Below are positions 1 through 25,548 of a stretch of DNA of 64,000 bases, one piece after another; position 1 is the stretch's first letter; every line of letters starts with the position of its first letter. The notes below the pieces were generated by a model. It was not told where the DNA came from. It made no database searches and saw only the letters and a list, made by a program, of their open reading frames with translations. The stretch covers positions 1,585,112-1,649,111 of the forward strand of contig NZ_CP101943.1 of the NCBI RefSeq assembly GCF_024508235.1, given 5' to 3'. This DNA is from Halococcus qingdaonensis. Its GTDB lineage: Archaea; Halobacteriota; Halobacteria; Halobacteriales; Halococcaceae. A program made the translations under genes and the position numbers.

Positions 1-482
1 TTGACCGCAGTGAGATAGCTCCCCCGATAGCCATCGACGCCGGTCCAGTAGAAAGCGTTGTACGCATAGCCCGTCGCGGTCAGGTTCTCCATCACCACGC
101 CGTCGGCCAGCGCGATGATCCCGTTGTACCGCGTCCCCTCGCCGTCGAGGACGACGCGGTTCCGGTCGCGCCCACGGATCGTGATGTTCGGCGTGTCGAG
201 CACCCGGACCTCCTCGGTGTAGCGTCCCGGGCCGACGAGCACGAGATCGTGAGGGTTCGCCGCCGAAACCGCCGCCTGGATCGTGTCGTGATCCTCCGGA
301 ACGCGGCGCGTCCGATAGTTCTCGTACTCGCGTGGCGGGTCGCGATCGGGAAGTGCCGCCGGAGTGGTGTGGGTATCGCCCGCGCCGACGGCCATCCGCC
401 CGAGACCGACCGTCCCCGTCGCACCCGCTGCAGCCCCGAGTTTCAGGACCTCGCGTCGGTGTCGTTTCGTGTCATCGGTCAT
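1..482 (-). CDS. Tat-exported right-handed beta-helix protein, partial
   Basis: Minus-strand gene whose C-terminal part lies beyond the window start; 160 codons are visible. The N-terminus carries a twin-arginine signal (RREVLKLGAAAG at about residues 9-20) followed by an Ala/Gly-rich core, so the protein is predicted to be exported folded by Tat. After it comes PEDHDTIQAAV and a run of short beta-strands including ITIRGRDRNRVVLDGEG, typical of NosD/pectate-lyase-like parallel beta-helix proteins. Such proteins bind or cleave polysaccharide or act as periplasmic scaffolds; the substrate cannot be told here. The ATG at 482 is chosen because it puts the RR motif near the N-terminus. Confidence 0.75.
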   Translation of the reverse strand, partial: MTDDTKRHRREVLKLGAAAGATGTVGLGRMAVGAGDTHTTPAALPDRDPPREYENYRTRRVPEDHDTIQAAVSAANPHDLVLVGPGRYTEEVRVLDTPNITIRGRDRNRVVLDGEGTRYNGIIALADGVVMENLTATGYAYNAFYWTGVDGYRGSYLTAV

Positions 483-557
483 CGCTACCACTAACCATAC
501 AGTTCACCGTCGAACGATGATAATAGTTCGCCTGATACAGCCGGCGAACGGCGACTG

Positions 558-959
558 CTAGCCGGTGGGTGAGAAGAGTTTGCACCAGCCGTCGGGATGG
601 ATACGTCCCTCGACCAGCACGCAGGCACCGAGCTCGTCGTCGCCTTTCGCCGGGATGAAATGTTGGCAGCCGGAACAGCCCTGCCCATCCTTCGGGGACG
701 ACTGGTAGGCGACGGTGTCCTTGGCGGTGAGCGACGACGGATCGCGCTGGCGATCGCTGAGACCCGTCGCCGTCTCGTAGCGTGCCGGCACGGAGCTGTT
801 CGTCGTTCCACCGGTACGAGCGGTGGTGGTCGAGGCACCGCCGTCGGCAGTGGTCGCGTCCCCATTGTCGGACTGGCCCGCGTCGGATCCCAAACAGCCG
901 GCAAGCACGGCGGTCGATCCCCCGCCGATCAGCCGGAGGAACGTCCGTCTATCGTCCAT
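558..959 (-). CDS. HiPIP-like iron-sulfur lipoprotein
   Basis: Short protein (133 aa from ATG 959; an in-frame ATG at 971 adds four residues). It starts DDRRTFLRLIGGG, a twin-arginine signal, with lipobox LAGC (Cys22), so a membrane-anchored lipoprotein outside the cell is expected. A Thr/Ser-rich linker follows. The C-terminal half has CSGCQHF (Cys95, Cys98), a third Cys at about 113 and GWC (Cys126), the four-Cys pattern of high-potential iron-sulfur proteins that carry one 4Fe-4S cluster and shuttle single electrons. Redox partner unknown. The family call rests on Cys spacing and the GWC ending. Confidence 0.75.
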   Translation of the reverse strand: MDDRRTFLRLIGGGSTAVLAGCLGSDAGQSDNGDATTADGGASTTTARTGGTTNSSVPARYETATGLSDRQRDPSSLTAKDTVAYQSSPKDGQGCSGCQHFIPAKGDDELGACVLVEGRIHPDGWCKLFSPTG

Positions 960-1242
960 GCCGGAGCTCACCCCTCGTGTACCCCATCGAATCGATCCCG
1001 TGTGGATTCGACGATGGCCGTCGACGAGTGGTCGTCGGGCACCCTCTCGCTCGTTTCGCTCGATCCCGGCACGAACGCCGGCTCGGAACAGTAGCGATGT
1101 TTTTTCCGGCCGTTCTCTCGACGGACACTGAGCGCATCTGTGGGTGTGAATGACAGCCCACCGATGAAAACGTTTCGTACAGTCGATCGAACCACAGTTC
1201 AGGCCCGGATTCGGGTCGGTTTGTCGCGTCCCATCCCAACCG

Positions 1243-1444
1243 TTATCCCACCGTGTGATCTACTGTCATGTGGAGGGACTAGTCATGCCTCTACGACAGC
1301 GCCGGGACGGCTCCGGTACGGGGAGAGCGCCGGATCTCAACGAGGTGATCGACCGCATCCTGAACGGTGGCGGCGACCCGTCGCCGACACCCGGCCCGTA
1401 AGCCACCGCGGGCGTCCCGTCCCCCATCAAGGGGACGGATTTTT
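1243..1444 (+). other. Small transcription unit, decayed mini-gene or ncRNA
   Basis: A TATA-like GTTATCC (about 1242-1248) is followed at suitable spacing by GTG 1271 and ATG 1286. A hairpin with an 8-bp stem CCGTCCCC/GGGGACGG (1417-1438, 6-nt loop) is followed by ATTTTT (1439-1444). From ATG 1286 only 20 codons are open, but the next frame reads DLNEVIDRILNGGGDP up to TAA at 1399-1401, so one missing base near the GGG at 1321-1323 would explain a broken protein of about 38 aa. The rest of the 960-1469 gap holds nothing I recognise. Confidence 0.3.
1417..1444 (+). terminator. Hairpin plus T-run
   Basis: Perfect 8-bp stem CCGTCCCC/GGGGACGG with a six-base loop, followed directly by ATTTTT. 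On the plus strand this looks like a factor-independent terminator for the small unit starting near 1270. It may also stop readthrough against the convergent membrane-protein gene ending at 1470. Confidence 0.45.
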
Positions 1445-1469
1445 CTCCCGATACAACTGCGTGCGTCGT

Positions 1470-2078
1470 TCAGCCACCGGCAGCCGGCAAGAGTCCACGA
1501 AGACCGGTCATCATGGCGATGACGACGAGCATGAGACCGGTCATCCCCATGAGCCAGCGCAGCGCACGGTTGTTCAGCTGCCCGACGCGTCCACCGTCGG
1601 GATCGGACGAGGCCAGTTCGACGAGCATCGCGGTCTGCAGCGAGTGCAGCGGGCCGAACGCGATGAGGAGCATCACGCCCGTCACGGCGAGCGCACCCCA
1701 GAGATAGATCGTCGGCGAGGCCCAGTAGTCGAGGCGGTACGCGAGCGCGATTCCCGACCCGATCGTCCCGACCGTCAGCGACTCGCCGACGACCATGATC
1801 TTCGGCGTGAGATGCGGGATGACCGCGGCGGCCGTCTCGGGACCGGCCCGGTCGAGCGCGGGAGCCATCACGTACCGGAAGAAGTAGTCGAGTCCGAACC
1901 AAAAGGCCCCGAGGCTGACGTGAACGTAGAACAGCAGCGTTTCGCTCCCGGAGAGAAAGGCAAGCACGGGAAGTCCGAGGATTGATCCCGCGGCGGCGAG
2001 CGCGTAGCGCGACCCCGCAGCCCCCACGACGAACCGGATCTCCTCGACGGACGACGTCGGTTCAGCTACTGTTGCCAT
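1470..2078 (-). CDS. Integral membrane protein, about five TM helices
   Basis: 202 aa, mostly hydrophobic. Membrane segments lie near residues 25-45 (YALAAAGSILGLPVLAFL), 48-70, 100-118, 122-145 and 172-195, with a Gly-rich C-terminal end. Segment two, FYVHVSLGAFWFGLDYFFRY, and the conserved-looking GPLHSLQ stretch recall small haloarchaeal membrane proteins of the DUF2269/CopD-like type, but I cannot name it. It is transcribed alone, away from the FNR-family gene at 2239. Function unknown. Confidence 0.7.
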   Translation of the reverse strand: MATVAEPTSSVEEIRFVVGAAGSRYALAAAGSILGLPVLAFLSGSETLLFYVHVSLGAFWFGLDYFFRYVMAPALDRAGPETAAAVIPHLTPKIMVVGESLTVGTIGSGIALAYRLDYWASPTIYLWGALAVTGVMLLIAFGPLHSLQTAMLVELASSDPDGGRVGQLNNRALRWLMGMTGLMLVVIAMMTGLRGLLPAAGG

Positions 2079-2238
2079 ACCCCTCCCGTGTCCGACATCA
2101 ACTTAATGGTACTGGCCTGAACAGTTCAGACAATGGACGTGGCGGCAGGCGGGTGATTCGACGATCGGATCCGGCGACGTGATCGTCACAAAATACTGCA
2201 AGCCGTCCGTTTAGGACGGTCGCGGCCGACCCGTGCAC

Positions 2239-2952
2239 ATGCCCTTCGAGGCGACAATCACGTCGATCCACCGGATGACACCGCGGGTGAAACAGTTCGT
2301 GGTCGAGGCCGAGGAAACGTTCGACTTCGACCCCGGCCAGCATACGACCGTCCGTTTCGAGCGCGACGAGCCGGACGACGACGAGGACGAACAGGTCGTC
2401 CGTCCGTACACGGCGACGAACACGCCGGGCAACGACCGGATCACGCTCGCGATCAAGCGCTACGACGATGGCACCGCCTCGGTCTACATGCACGAGCGCG
2501 AGGTCGGCGACACGATCACGCTCGGCGAGCTCGGCGGCAACCTCACCCTTCGCGACACCGACAGGGACGTCGTCTTCGTCTCAACGGGGACGGGTATCAC
2601 GCCGATGATAGCCATGCTGAAACAGTATCTCGAAGTCGGCACCGGCGAGGCCCACTTCTTCTACGGCGAGAAGAACCAGGAGAACGTCATGTACCGCGAG
2701 ACGCTCGACCAGCTCGCGGCCGAACACGACGAGCTGTCCGTCGTCTACTCGCTCTCCGACGAGGAGTGGGCGGGCCCGACCGGCTACGTTCAGGATCACC
2801 TCGACGACCGTCTCGACGACCTCGACAGGGATTTCTACGTCTGTGGCGTCCCGGGGATGGTCGTCGACACGAAGGACGAACTCGACGAACTGGGCGTCGA
2901 CGACGATCGGGTGTTCTCCGAGGGCTGGGAAGACGGCGAGGTCGAAGACTGA
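2239..2952 (+). CDS. FAD-dependent oxidoreductase, ferredoxin-NADP reductase family
   Basis: 237 aa, the usual size for a two-domain FNR-like flavoprotein without an iron-sulfur domain. The FAD-binding motif RPYT is at residues 55-58, the nucleotide-binding GTGITP at 117-122, and the C-terminal YVCGVPGMV at about 190-198 matches the CG-x-P region contacting NAD(P). It should move electrons between NAD(P)H and a small carrier such as ferredoxin or a flavodoxin-like partner. The ATG at 2239 is preferred over GTG 2233 because a TTTAGG box lies about 28 nt upstream (leaderless geometry). It stands alone, so its partner is not revealed by context. Confidence 0.85.
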   Translation: MPFEATITSIHRMTPRVKQFVVEAEETFDFDPGQHTTVRFERDEPDDDEDEQVVRPYTATNTPGNDRITLAIKRYDDGTASVYMHEREVGDTITLGELGGNLTLRDTDRDVVFVSTGTGITPMIAMLKQYLEVGTGEAHFFYGEKNQENVMYRETLDQLAAEHDELSVVYSLSDEEWAGPTGYVQDHLDDRLDDLDRDFYVCGVPGMVVDTKDELDELGVDDDRVFSEGWEDGEVED

Positions 2953-3071
2953 GCAAGCGCCTCACCGACCGGACGAGTCCACGATTCCCGCTCGGCATCA
3001 CGGTGCTTACCGAACCGGCGACGGGTTCTCGCAGGACCCCGGTGGTCGATCAGGACGCACCGTCGGCTCCA

Positions 3072-3995
3072 TCAGCCATCGGCAGCTGCGACGAGATCGC
3101 CGGCGAGCGCGGCAGCCTCGATCGCATCCGCGCCGAGGAGGTAGGTCACGGGTTCGATGCCGAACGCGCCTTCGTGATAGATGAGCCGCGGGACTGCCCC
3201 GCGCTCGCGAAAGCGCTCGCGGAGGTGCTCGGCGCGGTTCTCGTAGTCCGCGTCGAATCGCAGGGGATCGATATCGTGTTCCTCGGCCGCCGCGAGAAGA
3301 GCATCGGAGGTGGCGAGGTTGAGCGCACCTCGGATCGAGGGATCGATCGCCATCGCGGCGAGCAGGGTCTCGGCGACGTGCTGTGAGGCCCCGAACTCGG
3401 GCTGTGCCGGAACGAGTACCCGCCCGCCGACCGCGTGGACGCGTCCGGGAACGGCCGCGACCGCGGTCGCGTCGGTCGCCTCCGGCAGCGCCGTGGCGAC
3501 GTTCGTGCCGACTTTCGGGACGTGGGCGGCGATCTCCGGCGTGTTCGTCACCCGTCGCACGGCGGTGCGGACGGTTCTGAGGACGTCGCGTTCGGCGAGC
3601 ACGCCGTCGTCGCTCCCGCGGACGCAGAGATCGCAGCCGAGACCGTCGAGCGCCGGCATCTCCTCCTCGTGGACGGCACAGATGGGGCCGCGATCCTCGA
3701 ACGCACGGATCAGTTCGAGCAGTTCTGCGAGCGCCTCGTAACCGCTCATCGTGTCGGCGGCGAACCCGTCGGCGATCCGCGCCATCGTCGCCTGCATCCG
3801 CTCGTTCTCGCGAAACCGCTCCTCGACAGCGCCGTCGCCGCCGAGGGACTTGCTGACGGCGGCCTGAGTCACGCCCAGTCGATCGGCGATCTCCTGTTGA
3901 GTGAAATCGCGCTCGGCGAGTTCGCTCGCCAGCATCGACCGAGCGGTCGGGAGGAACCGCTCGACCACGATCTCGCTCGGGAGGCGCAGTGACAT
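3072..3995 (-). CDS. thiR: ThiR-like regulator: HTH plus ThiN domain
   Basis: 307 aa. An N-terminal helix-turn-helix (FTQQEIADRLGVTQAAVSKSL, residues 31-51) is joined to a C-terminal ThiN-type domain (about 125-305; ends in IYHEGAFGIEPVTYLLG). The middle contains a Cys cluster, ICAVHE then GCDLC, which could bind metal. ThiN domains make thiamine phosphate when fused to ThiD; the HTH-ThiN architecture is known in archaea as ThiR, a repressor of thiamine genes that senses thiamine phosphates. A thiamine link would be relevant because two ThDP enzymes and PorAB are encoded in this window, but no thiamine biosynthesis gene is adjacent. Confidence 0.8.
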   Translation of the reverse strand: MSLRLPSEIVVERFLPTARSMLASELAERDFTQQEIADRLGVTQAAVSKSLGGDGAVEERFRENERMQATMARIADGFAADTMSGYEALAELLELIRAFEDRGPICAVHEEEMPALDGLGCDLCVRGSDDGVLAERDVLRTVRTAVRRVTNTPEIAAHVPKVGTNVATALPEATDATAVAAVPGRVHAVGGRVLVPAQPEFGASQHVAETLLAAMAIDPSIRGALNLATSDALLAAAEEHDIDPLRFDADYENRAEHLRERFRERGAVPRLIYHEGAFGIEPVTYLLGADAIEAAALAGDLVAAADG

Positions 3996-4164
3996 GCGGC
4001 ATCGTCGGACGACGGCGTGTATAAATCGTGGTCATCACCGTCCGTCGATGATCGGATGCCGTCGTCGGCGGGTTCATCGATTCGCCCCAGCCGTTGTGTG
4101 CAGAAGCAATAATTTCGCTCTTCTGTCCCGTCACCGTTGATTTAGCCGGCGAGAGACCAAAGCC

Positions 4165-4172
4165 CATATACT
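4165..4172 (+). promoter_or_regulatory. TATA-like box of deacetylase gene
   Basis: CATATACT lies 23-30 nt before the GTG at 4195, the spacing expected for a leaderless haloarchaeal transcript. This supports GTG 4195 as the start. Confidence 0.5.
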
Positions 4173-4194
4173 GCGTTCGAGAGAACATCGTTGA

Positions 4195-5511
4195 GTGACT
4201 GACCCCGGCCGGCGACGACTGCTGACGATGCTCGGTGCCGCCGCGACCGCGCTGGGGTCGGGCTGTACGACCATTCTCGGTTCGACGGCCGGACCGAACG
4301 ACGACCAACCAAACGAGACCGACCGCCAGCAGCCGTCGACCACCACCGAGAACCGGAGTCGGGGGCGGACGAGCGGGACGGATCGTGACGATCCCGGCTC
4401 CAAGCTGCGGCGGACAGCGTGGGCGAGCGGCACGCCGCTGTCGGCCGATTCCGGGATCGGCGAGTGGACGGCGACCAACGGATCGGTTTCGTCAACCGAC
4501 TGGCACGGCCCGGGCGGCGACACGGGCGTCGAGCTCGTCTCGCCGGTACGCGTCGATCGTACGGCGATGCGGGCCTCGTTCGATCGGCCGATCGATCTGA
4601 CGAGTTCGGCGCTGTCGTTCGGCATCCGTCTCGATCGCGCGGCCGAGGAGACGATCGAGCTCCAGCTGCTCGCACCGGATGCGGACAACCGCCTCTCGAT
4701 GGAGCGCTATCTCAAGCGAAAGGAGGGGACCGTGCGGGTCGATTTCGCGCCGTCGTCGGTCACTGGCGCGCCCGATCTGACCGACGTCCGCGGGCTGGTG
4801 ATCAGAGCGTACACTGGCGACGAGAAATCGCTCACGCTGCGCGTGGGCGCGCCGCGCCTCCGGAAACTGTCACAGCGGCGCGGTGCGGTAATCCTCACGT
4901 TCGACGACGGTCACCACACGCAGTTCGACACGGCCAAGCCGATCATGGACGAGTTCGGCTATCCCGGTGTCGTCGGCGTGATTCCGTGGTTCGTCGGCAA
5001 CGAGATCCGCGCGACCCGCTCCCAGCTCCACACGATGGCCGACGACGGCTGGGAGATGGCTTCGCATCCCCAGTTCGAGGAAGCACCACTACCGACGCTG
5101 TCGCGGAAACGACAACGGGAGGCCATCGAACGCTCGCAACGGTGGCTCATCGACGAAGGGTTCGACAGCGGCGGTGAGACGTTGATCTGGCCGTTCGGTG
5201 ACTTCGACGAAGGCGTGCTCGACATGGTCGGCGAGTTCCACGAACTGGCGTTCGGCGGCGGCTCCTCGCCGGCCCCGTGGGCGATCACCGAACCGGCGTG
5301 GGTTCCCCGGGTCAACGGGGACAACCCGGAAGAGGTGCGACAGGCCGTGGACATGGCTGCCGGGTTCGGCGGCGTCACGACCGTCATGTTCCACACGATC
5401 GGGCAAGCCCGGCTGTCGACCGCGGCGTTTCGCGACGAACTCCACTACATCGAGCAGGCGGACGTGGATGTCGTCTTGCCGTCGGCGCTCGCGGACGCAC
5501 AGCCCTACTGA
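4195..5511 (+). CDS. Polysaccharide deacetylase family lipoprotein
   Basis: 438 aa from a GTG start. N-terminal GRRRLLTMLGAAATALGSGC is a Tat-type lipoprotein signal with a Cys at about 22, followed by a Thr/Arg-rich linker. Residues about 80-215 form a beta-rich, possibly carbohydrate-binding region. A NodB domain follows from about 225: LTFDDG supplies the metal-binding Asp pair and MASHPQF the His. WPFGDFD further on fits the substrate-loop motif. Expected role: metal-dependent removal of N- or O-acetyl groups from an extracellular glycan. Its 3' end overlaps the convergent amidohydrolase gene by 7 bp. Confidence 0.85.
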   Translation: MTDPGRRRLLTMLGAAATALGSGCTTILGSTAGPNDDQPNETDRQQPSTTTENRSRGRTSGTDRDDPGSKLRRTAWASGTPLSADSGIGEWTATNGSVSSTDWHGPGGDTGVELVSPVRVDRTAMRASFDRPIDLTSSALSFGIRLDRAAEETIELQLLAPDADNRLSMERYLKRKEGTVRVDFAPSSVTGAPDLTDVRGLVIRAYTGDEKSLTLRVGAPRLRKLSQRRGAVILTFDDGHHTQFDTAKPIMDEFGYPGVVGVIPWFVGNEIRATRSQLHTMADDGWEMASHPQFEEAPLPTLSRKRQREAIERSQRWLIDEGFDSGGETLIWPFGDFDEGVLDMVGEFHELAFGGGSSPAPWAITEPAWVPRVNGDNPEEVRQAVDMAAGFGGVTTVMFHTIGQARLSTAAFRDELHYIEQADVDVVLPSALADAQPY

Positions 5512-6734
5512 AGGGTTCCGTCACGGGCGACGACCTCGCCCGCGCTCACGACGTATCGCGGCGTCCGGTTGGACGTGATCGCCCACTCCGGCGACGGCCC
5601 GTGATGGACGACGAGGTTCGCCGGGGCTCCCTCGGCGAGCGCGTAATCGTCGAGATCCAGAATCGTCCCACCCTGTTCAGTGACGAGGTTCCAGAGAGAG
5701 CGTAATCCCCGATTCGTCGCGTAGCCATCGAGTGTGAGCGACTCGACGAGCATCGCTTCGAGCGCGTCGACGTTACCGTGAGCACCCCAGAGGTCGTGGA
5801 CCTGATCGGTGCCGTGGGCCATCGTGAGCCCCGCATCGTGGAACCGGCGGATCGGCATGCCCCGTGGCGTGCTCTGATAGCAAGTGATGAAATCGAGTTC
5901 GGCCGCCGCGAACGTCTCCATCGCGTCGCCAAGTCGTCCCTCCCAATTGGGTGCCTGATCGCTCGCAGCGTCGCCGAGCGCGTACGCGTGACTCGCCGTG
6001 ACTCGGCCCTCGTAATCGCGTTCGATCGTCGCCTCGGCGAGATGGCGGAGCGTCCGCATCCCGGTCGTGCCGCGCTCGTGGATGTGGACGTCGAGGTCGG
6101 CGTCGTGATCGGTAGCGATTTCGAACCACGTGGCGATCGTCCCCTCGCGATCGTCGTTGAACGTCGCGGGATCGAGCCCGCCGACGAGATCGGCCCCGGT
6201 GTCAAGCGCCGCACGGACGGCTTCAACCGAGCCCTCGTCGCGGCGGACGCCGTACTGCGGGAACGCGACGATCTCGATATCGAGACGGTCGCCGATCGTC
6301 TCTCGAACCGCCGAGATCGCCTCGACGACGTCCGTCCCGACCGTCCCGTCGACGTAGGCGTGCGTTCTGAGGTGGAGAATGCCGTTGGCGATCGCCTGAT
6401 CGGCCGCGCGGCGAGCGTTCGCCACGAGCTCGTCGTGGTCCGCCTCGGCGAAGTACGTCGCCGTGCGCTCGATCGTCTCCGCCCGATCGGCCCCGCCCTC
6501 ATTGTATCGCGGGCGGCGGTCGCCAGACGCCGAGAACGCCATATCGAGATGGACGTGTGCGTCGACGAACCCCGGCGAGACGAGGTTTCTCTCGGCATCG
6601 AGTTCGGTCTCTCCCTCTCCGTCGATTGCCGGGCAGATCGCCGCGATTCGGTCGTCGTCGATCGCGATGTCGACGGATGCGTCGTTTTCCGGAAGAAGGG
6701 CGTTGCGGACGACGAGTGTCGGCGAGGAATCCAT
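5505..6734 (-). CDS. Amidohydrolase, cytosine-deaminase-like
   Basis: 409 aa, the length of CodA-type deaminases. Metal-binding signatures are visible: VDAHVHLD near residue 58-65, LRTHAYVD near 120, HIHERG near 222, SHAYALG near 250 and HGTDQ near 310. These enzymes deaminate cytosine or related rings such as s-triazines, isoguanine or hydantoin-like compounds. It lies next to a VOC protein and the relic of an allantoinase-type gene, suggesting an N-heterocycle catabolic patch. Substrate cannot be fixed from sequence. Confidence 0.8.
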   Translation of the reverse strand: MDSSPTLVVRNALLPENDASVDIAIDDDRIAAICPAIDGEGETELDAERNLVSPGFVDAHVHLDMAFSASGDRRPRYNEGGADRAETIERTATYFAEADHDELVANARRAADQAIANGILHLRTHAYVDGTVGTDVVEAISAVRETIGDRLDIEIVAFPQYGVRRDEGSVEAVRAALDTGADLVGGLDPATFNDDREGTIATWFEIATDHDADLDVHIHERGTTGMRTLRHLAEATIERDYEGRVTASHAYALGDAASDQAPNWEGRLGDAMETFAAAELDFITCYQSTPRGMPIRRFHDAGLTMAHGTDQVHDLWGAHGNVDALEAMLVESLTLDGYATNRGLRSLWNLVTEQGGTILDLDDYALAEGAPANLVVHHGPSPEWAITSNRTPRYVVSAGEVVARDGTLQ

Positions 6735-6817
6735 GCTTGTGGATGGTGGAGCGCCCGCATCAATCGTGGGATCACAATCGCGGCTGCATGTGATCGAGGT
6801 TCGGTCGAATGAAGCCG

Positions 6818-7291
6818 TCAGGAATCCGTATAGAGCGACGATCGGAGTCCTTCCTCGGACTGGGAGACGGTCTCCGAGCGTTTCTCCACGGCCGCCGCGA
6901 TCTCCGAATCCAGCCCCTTCGTGTCGGGACGATCAACTTCGACCAGGTTGCCGCTCGGATCGCGGATGTACGTCTGGAGTACACCATCGGGGAGTTCGTA
7001 GATCGCCGGCACGCCGTCAGCGGCATACTCGTCGAAGAGGTCGCGTTCCAGGGCAATGCGGTAGACGCGCTCGAAGTCGTCGACGTGGACGGCGAAGTGG
7101 TGGTATTCGGGCGCTTCGACCTGCCGCTCGAACAGGTGGAGCTGTTTGTCGCCACACTGGAGCCACTCGACCGGGACGGGCAGATCGGGCGACGGGATGC
7201 GCTCCATGCCGAACACGTCGGTGTAGAACCGGACCGCTTCCGCGAGGTCGTGCGCGGAGATGCTCGCGTGAGTGAACGCTATCGAATCCAT
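6818..7291 (-). CDS. VOC-family protein (glyoxalase/dioxygenase fold)
   Basis: 157 aa. Single vicinal-oxygen-chelate unit: starts FTHASISAHDLAEAVRFYTDVFGM, middle HHFAVHVDD, end YIRDPSGNLVEVDRP. The His near residue 8, the His of HHFAVHVDD and the Glu of LVEVD are the expected metal ligands. VOC proteins cover glyoxalases, epimerases, dioxygenases and fosfomycin/bleomycin resistance; nothing here discriminates. Same strand as the amidohydrolase downstream with an 83-bp gap, so co-transcription is possible. Confidence 0.8.
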   Translation of the reverse strand: MDSIAFTHASISAHDLAEAVRFYTDVFGMERIPSPDLPVPVEWLQCGDKQLHLFERQVEAPEYHHFAVHVDDFERVYRIALERDLFDEYAADGVPAIYELPDGVLQTYIRDPSGNLVEVDRPDTKGLDSEIAAAVEKRSETVSQSEEGLRSSLYTDS

Positions 7292-7376
7292 CGTGGTATC
7301 TCTGCCAAACGGTGACTAATCGGTTGCGCTTGATGGATTCGCCCGGATCGACGATCGAGGAAGGCGAGGGCGGTTC

Positions 7377-7529
7377 CTACTCGGCATCCCAGTCGGGTCG
7401 CTCGCGGGCGACGAACTCGCCGTAGCCGGGATCGGCGACGATCTCGCCATCGTCGATGGCGATGGCGCTGTCGAGCAGTCGATCGGGTGTTACCAGGGTG
7501 CCATTCGCGATGACGAGATCGACGGTCAC
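7377..7529 (-). pseudogene. Relic of allantoinase/dihydropyrimidinase-type gene
   Basis: A 50-codon frame from GTG 7529 to TAG 7377. The first about 30 residues (VTVDLVIANGTLVTP, then AIAIDDGEIV) match the N-terminus of the intact 458-aa hydrolase at 24172-25548. The last about 20 (YGEFVARERPDWDAE) match that protein's C-terminus (GRGEFVPRERPDWSV). All metal-binding residues are missing, so no hydrolase activity is possible. The join is at DDGEIV, which occurs in similar form at both ends of the full-length protein (IDDGTIV near the start, ADDGEIV near the end), pointing to deletion between these short similar stretches. Confidence 0.75.
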
Positions 7530-7612
7530 GCGACAGTCAACGACGCACCGTCACTTGAACGCGCTGGCTTCGACGGGATCGATGGCTCCGCGGATCGATC
7601 CTTGAAACGTCA

Positions 7613-7663
7613 CATTTTATATCATATATTTGTCATTCAGTGAATACCATAGCAGATATGGTA
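7613..7663 (-). promoter_or_regulatory. AT-rich promoter and palindrome before the relic gene
   Basis: On the minus strand ATATATGATATAAAATG (about 7615-7631) is a strong TATA-type element about 90 nt ahead of the relic's GTG. Immediately upstream lies a palindrome with 7-bp arms, TACCATA-GCAGA-TATGGTA (7645-7663), of a size usual for a dimeric regulator's operator. Which regulator binds is unknown. Confidence 0.4.
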
Positions 7664-8516
7664 AGTATTCGCTCGCGACGGTGGTGACGGGATCGACGTT
7701 TCGTCCGCAGTGTGTCGAAAATCCCGCAAGTGGCATAGTAGAATCACCAATGCCCATGGCCCAAGTGGATACAGGAACTCACCAGGGCGGGCGTGTAGCA
7801 ACGGAGAGTACCATTACGTCGGGAGCACACGACGGATCGCCCCATCGCGTAGCTCCACCACTCCACTGGTCCGGATTGTAATTTATACCTCCTAAGAGTA
7901 TTTTTAGTCTGCACTAATTTATAGCTTTTGTTCTCCACCAACCACTTCTGTTCAGACAGTTGGCCGTCTTGAACGCCAAATTCAGGGGTATAAGGCGGAG
8001 CGTCACGTTCGTGAACCGGGGGTCCGCGGTGACGGCATCGACGTACATCGTTTCAAGCTCCGGACCCGGAGACGGCGGCGTTCGAGCCGCCGATCGGAGG
8101 ACGGGTCCGTTTTCCTATCCATTTCAACGATCCCCAATCAACAATCAGATATTCGATATTACCTCGATAGTGTATACAGATCGTCATAGATGGTCTCTAT
8201 ATTCCGTCGGAGATACCGTAGAAACAACGGTCTACATGTGTCCTCCAGGTTTGTTTCCGAAGGCCAGTGATCGGTTCGGGCACCACCCCGTCGTGGACCC
8301 GTGACGACACGGAAGAGCCGACGCAGTTCTTTCGTACGCGTGATCACCAGCCTGTCGTCGATGGATATCGAATACAGAGGCCGAGAGTGGAGGTGGAATC
8401 GACAGATCGTATCGATGTTCGTCGAAAGAACGGAATTCGATCTCACGGACTGTGAAAGCACCCGAGGCGAGCGACGTGCCGGCCAAGATCCTCGGGAACG
8501 GCGACCGAACCCCCAT
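7664..8516. other. Gap of about 850 bp without a recognisable gene
   Basis: No reading frame here shows haloarchaeal codon bias or family motifs. The region is more AT-rich than its surroundings between 7870 and 8300, has several TATA-like stretches (for example TTTATACC near 7884), and a hairpin CGGCGGC/GCCGCCG with a 6-nt loop at 8073-8092. It may be degraded sequence next to the relic gene at 7377-7529. Confidence 0.4.
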
Positions 8517-9521
8517 TCACCGAAGCATCGGCGCGACCTCGGTACCGAGCCGATCGATACAATCGACCATCGCATCGGTGCCGATACCGGGATGATAGGT
8601 GCGAAAGATGATATGAGTGTCGTCGCCCGTGGCCGCACGGTATCGCTCTAACTCTGTCGCGACCTGTTCGGTTGTACCGAATACCGCGTTTTCTTTCAAT
8701 TCCTGCTTTCGCTCGGCGGAGAGTTCGTCGACCGATTCGCCGGAGAAGATTTCGGCGTAGCGCCGCTGGAGGTAGAAGTAGCCGGGTTTCATCGTTTCCC
8801 ATGCCGCCTCGCGCGACTCGTCGACCCAACCGTGGACGAGCGCGTACACCGTGAACTCGCCGTCGATTCCCTCCTTCTCGCGGACCTTACGGATGTCGTC
8901 GACGCGCTTTTCGATGCCTGAAAGAGGGAGTTTCGAGGGGGCACACCACGCGTCGGCAGTCCGGGCGGCACGGCGGACAGCCGGTTTGGCCGCACCGCCG
9001 AGCAGTATCGGCACACCCCCGTCGGGTTTCGGCGTCACGCTCACGTCGGGAGTGATGTCGTGGAAGTCGGCGTCGTAGTCGAGTGGACCGGCGGACCACG
9101 CCGCTCGTAGGAGGTTCACCTGATCGGCGAGGCGTTCGGCGCGTTCCTCGCGCGGGACGCCGAACTGCTCGAACTCGTCGGGGTTCGAGCCGATGGCGAG
9201 CCCGAGCGTCAACCGACCATCGGCAAGCAGATCGACTGTCGCCGCGTCCTCGGCCAGCCGAACGCCATCGTAGAGGGGCGCGAGCGCGATGCACGTCCCG
9301 ATCTCGATCTCGTCTGTCACGGCCGCGAGCGCGCCGAGCGTCGGCATCGTTCCAGAGAGATAGCCGTCCTCGGCGAAGTGGTGTTCGGAGACCCACGCGC
9401 TGTCGAGACCCGCGTCGTCGATCGCTCGCCCGAGCGTGAGGATCTCGTCGTAGAGCTCGCTCATCGAGCGGTCGTCGTCGGGTCGCCGCTGGCCGGTGAA
9501 CAGTCCGGTCCCGAGCTTCAT
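8517..9521 (-). CDS. LLM-class flavin-dependent oxidoreductase
   Basis: 334 aa from ATG 9521 (MKLGTGLFT; an upstream ATG at 9536 would add five residues). Luciferase-like TIM-barrel monooxygenase: SAWVSEHHFAEDGYL near residues 40-55, then LLADGRLTLGLAIGSNPDEF typical of the FMN/F420 phosphate-binding region. Such enzymes use FMNH2 or coenzyme F420, the latter common in haloarchaea. It could oxidise a small organic substrate in the same patch as the EthD, M24 and epimerase genes. Substrate unknown. Confidence 0.85.
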   Translation of the reverse strand: MKLGTGLFTGQRRPDDDRSMSELYDEILTLGRAIDDAGLDSAWVSEHHFAEDGYLSGTMPTLGALAAVTDEIEIGTCIALAPLYDGVRLAEDAATVDLLADGRLTLGLAIGSNPDEFEQFGVPREERAERLADQVNLLRAAWSAGPLDYDADFHDITPDVSVTPKPDGGVPILLGGAAKPAVRRAARTADAWCAPSKLPLSGIEKRVDDIRKVREKEGIDGEFTVYALVHGWVDESREAAWETMKPGYFYLQRRYAEIFSGESVDELSAERKQELKENAVFGTTEQVATELERYRAATGDDTHIIFRTYHPGIGTDAMVDCIDRLGTEVAPMLR

Positions 9522-9621
9522 AGCGGAACTGTGCACCCGGGCCTCAAAGCACTATCCCCGGATGACTGTCCGACGAACGCGATACCGAACGGCTGATGGA
9601 CACCGCTGCTGATCTTTGGCC

Positions 9622-11712: not shown

Positions 11713-12444
11713 ATGTACAAACACGTCGCATTGCTCGTCCGTAAGGACGGGATGGAGTACGACGCGTTTCGCGAACACTGGGAAGAGATCCACTCGCCGC
11801 TGGCGAAGGACATTGAAGGCGTCGTTCGCTATCAAACGGTCTATCCTACCGATCCCGACACCGCCGAGTTCGACGGCCTCGCCGAACTCTACTTCGAATC
11901 GCTCGACGATCTCCACGAGGCGCTCGGCAGCGAAGGAGATCGGGATTACGACCCCACCCGAGAGATTGCAGCGGAGGCACGCGAGGACGTAAACAATTTC
12001 CTCGATATCGATCGCCGACCCAGATTCATCGGCGAGGAGAAAGTCTGGAAGGACGAGATCGACGGAGATACTGATGAACTCTACAAACACTCGGCGTTCC
12101 TCGTTCGCAAGGATGGGATGAACCACGACGAGTTTCGCGAACACTGGGAGGAGACCCACTCACCGCTGGCGAAGGACATCGAGGGCGTCGTTCGCTACCA
12201 GACCGTCTATCCCACCGATCCCGACAACGCCGAGTTCGATGGCGTCGCCGAACTCTATTTCGAATCGCTCGACGACCTCCACCAAGCGCTCGGCAGTGAG
12301 GGAAGTCGTGACTACGACCCGACGCGGGAGGTTGCGGCGGAGGCCCGAAGGGACGTGGACAACTTCTTAGACATCGATCGTCGGCCCCGCTTCATCGGCG
12401 AGGAGAAAGTCTGGAAGGACGAGATCGACGACGTCGAAGGCTAC
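11713..12444 (+). repeat. In-frame 366-bp tandem gene duplication
   Basis: Copies 11713-12078 and 12079-12444, head to tail, each 122 codons. They differ at 19 of 122 residues by my count, five of these at the last positions. The exact equal length and absence of a linker indicate a unit duplication that kept the whole domain. Confidence 0.85.
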
Positions 12445-24171: not shown

Positions 24172-25548
24172 TTAGACGCTCCAGTCTGGTCGTTCGCGCG
24201 GGACGAACTCGCCACGACCGGTCTCGACGATCTCGCCGTCGTCGGCGACGACCTCGCCGCGGACGAGCGTCGTTTTTGCGCGCCCGGTCACGTCGCGACC
24301 CTCGTAGATCGAGTAGTCGGCGACCGAAGCGTTGTCTTCGGCAGTGATCGTGTAGCTCTCGTTCGGGTCGAACAGGACGATGTCGGCGTCGGTGCCGGGA
24401 TCGAGCGTGCCCTTCTCGGCGAAGCCAAACGTCCGTGCCGGGTTCGTACACATCGTCCGGACGAGGAACGGGTACGAGAAGCCGCGTCGGTTCACCGCCT
24501 CGTCGTGGAACACCGCGAGACTCGCCTGCAGTCCGTTGGCCCCGAACGGGTCCTCCCACCACTCGGTGGTCTCCTTTCGCTCGCGCGTCTGTGCGACGTG
24601 ATCGGTCGAGACGACACTCAGCGCACCCTCGCGGAGATGCTCAAACAGGGCGTCGTTGTCGTCGCTGGTCCGCAACGGCGGCGTCAGCTCCGGCAGGTTG
24701 CCCATCTCGTCGAAGAGCTCCTTCGTCAGCGTAGTGTGGTGGACGCAGGCCTCACCACGGATGTTGCTTCCGTCGCGCTGGTAGCGTGCGAGCGCATCCG
24801 CCGCCTTTCGGGAGGACGTGTGGAAGCCGTAGTACTGTGCGCCGGTCTCGCTGGCGAGTCTGGCGACATCGTCGGCGGCCATCGCCTCGGCGTAATCCGG
24901 TCGCGCCTCGGCGAGCCAGCGGGGATCGTCCCGTCCGGCTTCCCGGAACTCCTTGGTGAGCGACTCACAGACGCTGTGGTCCTCGGTGTGGACGACCCCA
25001 ACGGCGTCGAGATCCGCCAGCTCGTCGAACACTCGGCGGATATAGCCGTGCGAGAGACCGAACTCGTAGGTGCTGTACATCTTGAACGAAGTGATACCGT
25101 CCTCGATCAGCCCCTCGAGCTCGTCGAAGGCATCCTCGCCCTCGCGTAGGAAGCCGCCGTGGAGGCTGAAGTCGATCACCGGATTCTCGGCCTTTTCGCG
25201 CTTGCGCTCGACACCCTCCCGGATCGTACTCTCCTCGTCCCAGGCGCTGTCCTCGCTGACGTACGCCTGCCAGCCGAAGTCGATGAGCGACGTCACGCCG
25301 CCGAGCGCGGCGGCGCTGGTCGCCGATTCGTAGCTGTCGAGCGAGACGTGGTCGTCGATGTGAGTGTGCGGGTCGACGACGCCAGGCATCACGAGGCGGT
25401 CCGACGCGTCGATCGTGGTCGAGGCCTCTGGCAGCGTCTCCTCGTCGCCAACGCCGACGATGGTTCCGTCGTCGATCGCGATGGCACCATCGAAAACGCT
25501 CTCGCTCGTCACGATGGTCCCGTTCGAAATTACTGTATCAACCGGCAT
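24172..25548 (-). CDS. Allantoinase/dihydropyrimidinase-type cyclic amidohydrolase
   Basis: 458 aa. Binuclear metal amidohydrolase with His61 and His63 (VDPHTHID), the bridging Lys156 in SFKMYST, His187 (VVHTED), a later His in YGFHTSS and the catalytic Asp in STDHVA. It opens cyclic ureides: allantoin to allantoate, or hydantoins and dihydropyrimidines. The uricase set upstream and the AllC-like amidase downstream favour allantoinase. The NCS1 permease is divergent 190 bp away. A two-end relic of a close homologue is at 7377-7529. Confidence 0.87.
   Translation of the reverse strand: MPVDTVISNGTIVTSESVFDGAIAIDDGTIVGVGDEETLPEASTTIDASDRLVMPGVVDPHTHIDDHVSLDSYESATSAAALGGVTSLIDFGWQAYVSEDSAWDEESTIREGVERKREKAENPVIDFSLHGGFLREGEDAFDELEGLIEDGITSFKMYSTYEFGLSHGYIRRVFDELADLDAVGVVHTEDHSVCESLTKEFREAGRDDPRWLAEARPDYAEAMAADDVARLASETGAQYYGFHTSSRKAADALARYQRDGSNIRGEACVHHTTLTKELFDEMGNLPELTPPLRTSDDNDALFEHLREGALSVVSTDHVAQTRERKETTEWWEDPFGANGLQASLAVFHDEAVNRRGFSYPFLVRTMCTNPARTFGFAEKGTLDPGTDADIVLFDPNESYTITAEDNASVADYSIYEGRDVTGRAKTTLVRGEVVADDGEIVETGRGEFVPRERPDWSV

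Follow-up and report, generated by a model that had tools for sequence, protein, structure and literature searches.

Gene loss through recombination of short direct repeats has precedents among haloarchaea. In Haloquadratum walsbyi, the cases set out in PMC3119063 consist of a sequence flanked in one strain by a direct repeat, usually shorter than 20 bp, of which the other strain keeps one copy; 16 of them have repeats of 10-19 bp, and slight variation between the repeat copies of the intact strain is among the observations given there. For Haloferax volcanii, the account in PMC2700283 describes microhomology-mediated end joining with microhomologies of 3-5 bp and deletions of 6-977 bp. The locus considered here, within a 64,000-nucleotide stretch of Halococcus qingdaonensis DNA (the window), is not named in the titles or opening abstract lines of the papers listed for Halococcus allantoinase, Halococcus pseudogenes and comparative genomics, or haloarchaeal hydantoinase.

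A short frame made of the two ends of an amidohydrolase

The open frame at window positions 7377-7529 (minus strand) has 50 codons, runs from a GTG start to a TAG stop and encodes the peptide MTVDLVIANGTLVTPDRLLDSAIAIDDGEIVADPGYGEFVARERPDWDAE (first codon GTG). As judged by alignment, it consists of both ends of a hydantoinase-like amidohydrolase, joined to each other. With the gene at 24172-25548 (minus strand) identity is 63% over residues 1-32 and 58% over residues 17-48; with a copy elsewhere in the same genome (G000:C1:102136-103512) it is 91% over residues 1-32 and 81% over residues 24-49; and with the gene of H. thailandensis (G009) it is 91% over residues 1-32 and 85% over residues 24-50. 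The six matching pieces have E values from 4.1e-6 to 4.1e-13 at the scale of one genome, so that they are not chance matches. The N- and C-terminal matches overlap at DDGEIV, in agreement with the original prediction, which had read the frame from the 24172-25548 alignments as an N- and a C-terminus meeting at that point. The frame lacks 410 of 461 codons, including the segment with VDPHVHID, presumably the metal-binding HxH motif, and the relic peptide itself finds nothing in Pfam or NCBIfam at E <= 0.001, PF01979 (Amidohydro_1) included.

A complete counterpart in H. thailandensis

H. thailandensis JCM 13552 (contig_165) carries, at the matching site (L042:8370-9752), an uninterrupted gene for 460 amino acids, flanked by orthologues of the same neighbours as the relic. 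In that genome the aligned counterparts of window positions 1-7455 and of 7435-7935 are separated by about 1.2 kb, with the intact gene between them, and this gene is, by alignment and position, the full-length form of the relic. A full-length orthologue at the site in a related genome, looked for on the strength of the original prediction, thus exists. The downstream neighbour, a glyoxalase-like protein (PF00903) at 6818-7291 (minus strand), stands in the same place in H. thailandensis with 445/474 bases identical; used as a query on 60 related genomes at E <= 1e-20, it was found in three, its own included, with 94% identity in H. thailandensis and 45% in the third. The upstream neighbour, a luciferase-like (LLM class) oxidoreductase (PF00296) at 8517-9536 (minus strand), occupies the same place in both H. 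thailandensis (927/1020 bases identical) and H. morrhuae. A cytosine-deaminase-like amidohydrolase (PF07969) lies at 5505-6734, also on the minus strand; the relic had been placed beside it, but the glyoxalase-like gene stands between the two.

Upstream of the relic, a block of about 200 bp (7700-7910, minus-strand sense) has 86% identity to its counterparts in H. thailandensis and H. morrhuae. Its core is nearly invariant, a TATA-like element can be recognized by eye, and part of the block is kept (77% over about 75 bp) at a different location in G002 (C13), a fourth member of the genus. Its fold z-score is -2.1, with two-sided changes in only one of 56 predicted pairs (four sequences), and an Rfam scan of 7000-8700 returned a single match at E 0.98, far below the gathering score. 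The block is possibly a small RNA or a leader. Elsewhere in the window, at 11716-12430, a duplicated domain is indicated by two stretches of about 349 bp whose alignments with the H. thailandensis and H. morrhuae counterparts run crosswise; inspected by eye, the corresponding frame of H. thailandensis has two halves that resemble each other.

The deletion and the direct repeat

Removal of exactly 1230 bp (410 codons) from the H. thailandensis gene gives the best match to the relic, with 142 of 153 bases identical. An equally good fit is obtained with 18 adjacent breakpoints (gene positions 74-91), which is the expectation from a repeat of 17 bp. Such a repeat, CGACGACGGCGAGATCG, is present as an exact direct repeat in the H. 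thailandensis gene at nt 75 and 1305; no other direct repeat there is as long, the only further one of at least 11 bp having 11, and it is on the 17-bp repeat that the deletion junction falls. The relic can accordingly be divided (all on the minus strand) into an N-terminal part, 7456-7529, corresponding to nt 1-74 of the intact orthologue; the junction, 7439-7455, with the sole remaining repeat copy, CGACGATGGCGAGATCG; and the C-terminal part with the stop codon, 7377-7438, corresponding to nt 1322-1383. The single copy at the joint matches what defines a repeat-mediated deletion. It differs from the H. thailandensis repeat by one base (GAT for GAC), so that the repeat was perhaps slightly imperfect at the time of recombination. 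The fusion stays in frame, since the two copies share one reading frame and 1230 bp corresponds to 410 whole codons.

When the codons of the H. thailandensis gene were shuffled synonymously 300 times, a longest repeat of 17 bp was reached in six shuffles, and its existence alone is therefore not extraordinary; the evidence is the position of the junction on the repeat, rather than the presence of the latter. The original prediction, in which short similar sequences recombined and about 1.2 kb was lost in a single in-frame step, is thereby made precise, and comparison of the genes shows where the deletion lies, how large it is and which way the change went. We are strongly confident that the 50-codon frame is a deletion pseudogene.

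That the junction lies on a direct repeat, a place where assembly errors can arise, might also suggest that the real gene is intact and that the assembler merged the two copies. However, the genome is a single contig of 2,703,393 bases, 17 bp is short for such an error, and the same gene is broken in H. morrhuae too, so that an artefact of this kind appears exceedingly improbable.

The relic differs from the joined ends of the H. thailandensis gene by eight synonymous and three non-synonymous changes, and no further decay is seen, as expected of a young relic and equally of a constrained frame; either the relic is young or its differences are mostly older than the deletion. The intact start, stop and frame, together with the prevalence of synonymous over non-synonymous changes, would also suit a frame that was kept and whose translation gives a small protein with a new role, composed of the enzyme's first and last strands. 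If so, a gene would have been born by excision of the catalytic barrel with retention of the start and end of the chain. We regard this as very unlikely. Among 243 genomes of the order, 24 (its own included) match the relic peptide at E <= 1e-6, but residues 1-50 are matched in one piece at that threshold only in its own genome, so that the peptide is not conserved as such across species and conservation lends the proposal no support; the other matches listed sit in frames of 431-513 codons, except for a 78-codon remnant in H. morrhuae. Pfam and NCBIfam offer nothing for it either at the threshold given above. Furthermore, the sequence before the start (7530-7690) is strongly diverged from that of H. 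thailandensis (83 of 151 aligned bases identical, with 47 gap columns), whereas the 85 bp behind the stop are not (83/85 identical), and the divergence of the frame may mostly predate the deletion, when the gene would still have been constrained.

Direction of the change and loss in H. morrhuae

Reading the frame as a deletion pseudogene implies that the longer form came first. H. morrhuae DSM 1307 (G001, contig_148) keeps about 66 codons of the gene, reaching past the junction point, so that the ancestral gene was longer than the relic, and full-length homologues are found in many haloarchaea. The genome collection yielded 27 loci when scanned, among which L095 and L098 come from bacteria and a further two, L079 and L097 (the H. 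morrhuae remnant), are incomplete. By these comparisons, the direction of change is deletion, not insertion. Across the 10 genomes of the genus, the relic subfamily was seen only as the intact gene of H. thailandensis, as the second copy and the relic in the present genome, and as the H. morrhuae remnant, the other matches being at most 62% identical; H. thailandensis has the only known intact orthologue at the relic site.

In H. morrhuae, the point where the gene is left is followed by about 90 gapless bases up to a run of eight N (L044:8091-8098), and a frame across this run matches an IS1595-type transposase domain. The remainder of the gene was not found in the assembly at E <= 1e-8, the glyoxalase gene was not found at E <= 1e-20, and window positions 3550-6800 were not found at E <= 1e-10 (40 of 397 first-look candidates scored); an assembly gap is possible for these missing parts, since the other flank stops at a contig end (C96:116859). 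The same gene has been lost separately in H. morrhuae, by other means. Transposase-like frames (PF01609, PF12762) lie beside the truncated orthologue, across the N run, at L044:5843-8170 of contig_148.

Enzyme family and paralogues

The intact orthologue scores 86.6 bits against Amidohydro_1 (PF01979; gathering cut-off 25) over most of the model. In NCBIfam, D-hydantoinase/dihydropyrimidinase ranks first and allantoinase third, with 315.6 bits for TIGR02033 (D-hydantoinase/dihydropyrimidinase; cut-off 393.25) and 280.2 bits for TIGR03178 (allantoinase AllB; cut-off 357.85). The protein matches both models over nearly full length but scores under both cut-offs, and for this reason the name is kept at hydantoinase-like, with no specific substrate. 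The allantoinase label of the original prediction is not borne out by the curated model.

In a protein tree of 26 rows, including the bacterial L095, the H. thailandensis gene and the second copy of the present genome form a clade with 100/100 support, to which a Halobacteriales MAG and Haloplanus ruber attach (91/92), and the Halococcus clade that contains the intact gene at 24172-25548 stands apart from it. The relic subfamily and the 24172 gene are outparalogues, with about 61% identity between the proteins. A full-length gene did once stand at the relic site, as had been proposed, but it belonged to this separate subfamily rather than being a second copy of the 24172 gene. That both relic ends align to the window's own gene (63% and 58%) could suggest a remnant of a copy of it; given the 91% and 85% identity to the syntenic gene of H. 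thailandensis, and with the 100/100 clade lying outside that of the 24172 gene, such an origin is ruled out for practical purposes, and we assign it a negligible probability.

Whether similar ends make this enzyme family generally prone to such losses was addressed with 25 haloarchaeal genes: the 102-kb copy, the 24172 gene and 23 of the 27 loci (leaving out the partial L079 and L097 and the bacterial L095 and L098). On average their longest terminal repeat measured 8.9 bp, versus 8.1 bp in synonymous and 7.5 bp in codon shuffles (60 of each kind per gene). A length of at least 15 bp was reached in only two of the 25, namely the 102-kb copy and the gene of H. thailandensis. A general weakness of the family is mostly rejected by this comparison.

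The second copy in the same genome

Between the H. thailandensis gene and the intact member of the relic subfamily kept at C1:102136-103512, DNA identity is 91.5% over 1374 bases. The copy at C1 is accompanied by two PF02133 genes (cytosine/purine/uracil/allantoin permease family) and a gene for an IclR-type regulator, in a block of about 8.6 kb (L046:6266-14875; G000:C1, about 98.3-106.9 kb) next to an Orc1/Cdc6-like gene. The matches to the gene before the block (CBS-type by eye) and to the Orc1/Cdc6-like gene lie within 24 bases of each other in H. thailandensis and within 72 in H. morrhuae, and the stretch of about 8.6 kb is therefore absent from the matching place in both; since identity in the Orc1-like matches is only about 75%, more than this stretch may have been replaced.

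Of 147 joined bases, the relic shares 136 with H. thailandensis and 131 with the 102-kb copy, and the latter two have 128 in common. Among the first 31 codons, those numbered 2, 3, 4, 5, 9, 18 and 30 are the same in the relic as in both H. thailandensis and H. morrhuae and different in the 102-kb copy, and codon 14 alone is common to just the relic and the 102-kb copy. With seven codons against one, albeit in a small sample, it is unlikely that the 102-kb copy is the relic's parent simply moved. A point on the other side comes from the C-terminal part, where the adjacent relic codons 42-45 (R-E-R-P) match the 102-kb copy but differ from H. thailandensis, perhaps through an exchange or through changes private to H. 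thailandensis.

Proposed course of events

On this reading, an intact hydantoinase/dihydropyrimidinase-like gene of about 460 codons was already at this site in the ancestor that the present Halococcus shares with H. thailandensis and H. morrhuae. In the present lineage, two copies of about 17 bp encoding D-D-G-E-I, one near each end of the gene, then recombined, removing in a single in-frame step 1230 bp, that is, one repeat copy and everything between the copies. The molecular route may have been microhomology-mediated end joining, single-strand annealing or replication slippage. Start, stop and frame survived, but with the catalytic barrel gone no such enzyme can be made from the locus. The loss was probably tolerable, because the genome holds an intact member of the same subfamily as well as the 24172 paralogue, and the arrival of the 102-kb block may have made the old gene dispensable.

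Comparison with known systems

The relic is an ordinary, well-documented kind of gene decay, for which a new mechanism is unneeded, and our general understanding is unchanged by it. Its value is that of a clean Halococcus example of a gene erased through recombination of short repeats, which owe their existence to the similar peptides encoded at its two ends. The site also records turnover of a catabolic enzyme, since a sister species lost the same gene otherwise and the genome holds a close relative in a gene block.

Among the described systems, the event is of the kind presented as repeat-mediated deletion in Haloquadratum walsbyi (PMC3119063), with which it shares a direct repeat shorter than 20 bp and one copy left at the joint; the cases given there, however, come from two strains of one species and are many, whereas here there is one event, between species, within a gene and in frame. 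The event is also compatible with the microhomology-mediated end joining of Haloferax volcanii, which likewise produces haloarchaeal deletions with short homology at the joint and offers candidate machinery, although the figures in that account (PMC2700283), 3-5 bp and 6-977 bp, compare with a 17-bp repeat and a 1230-bp deletion in the relic.
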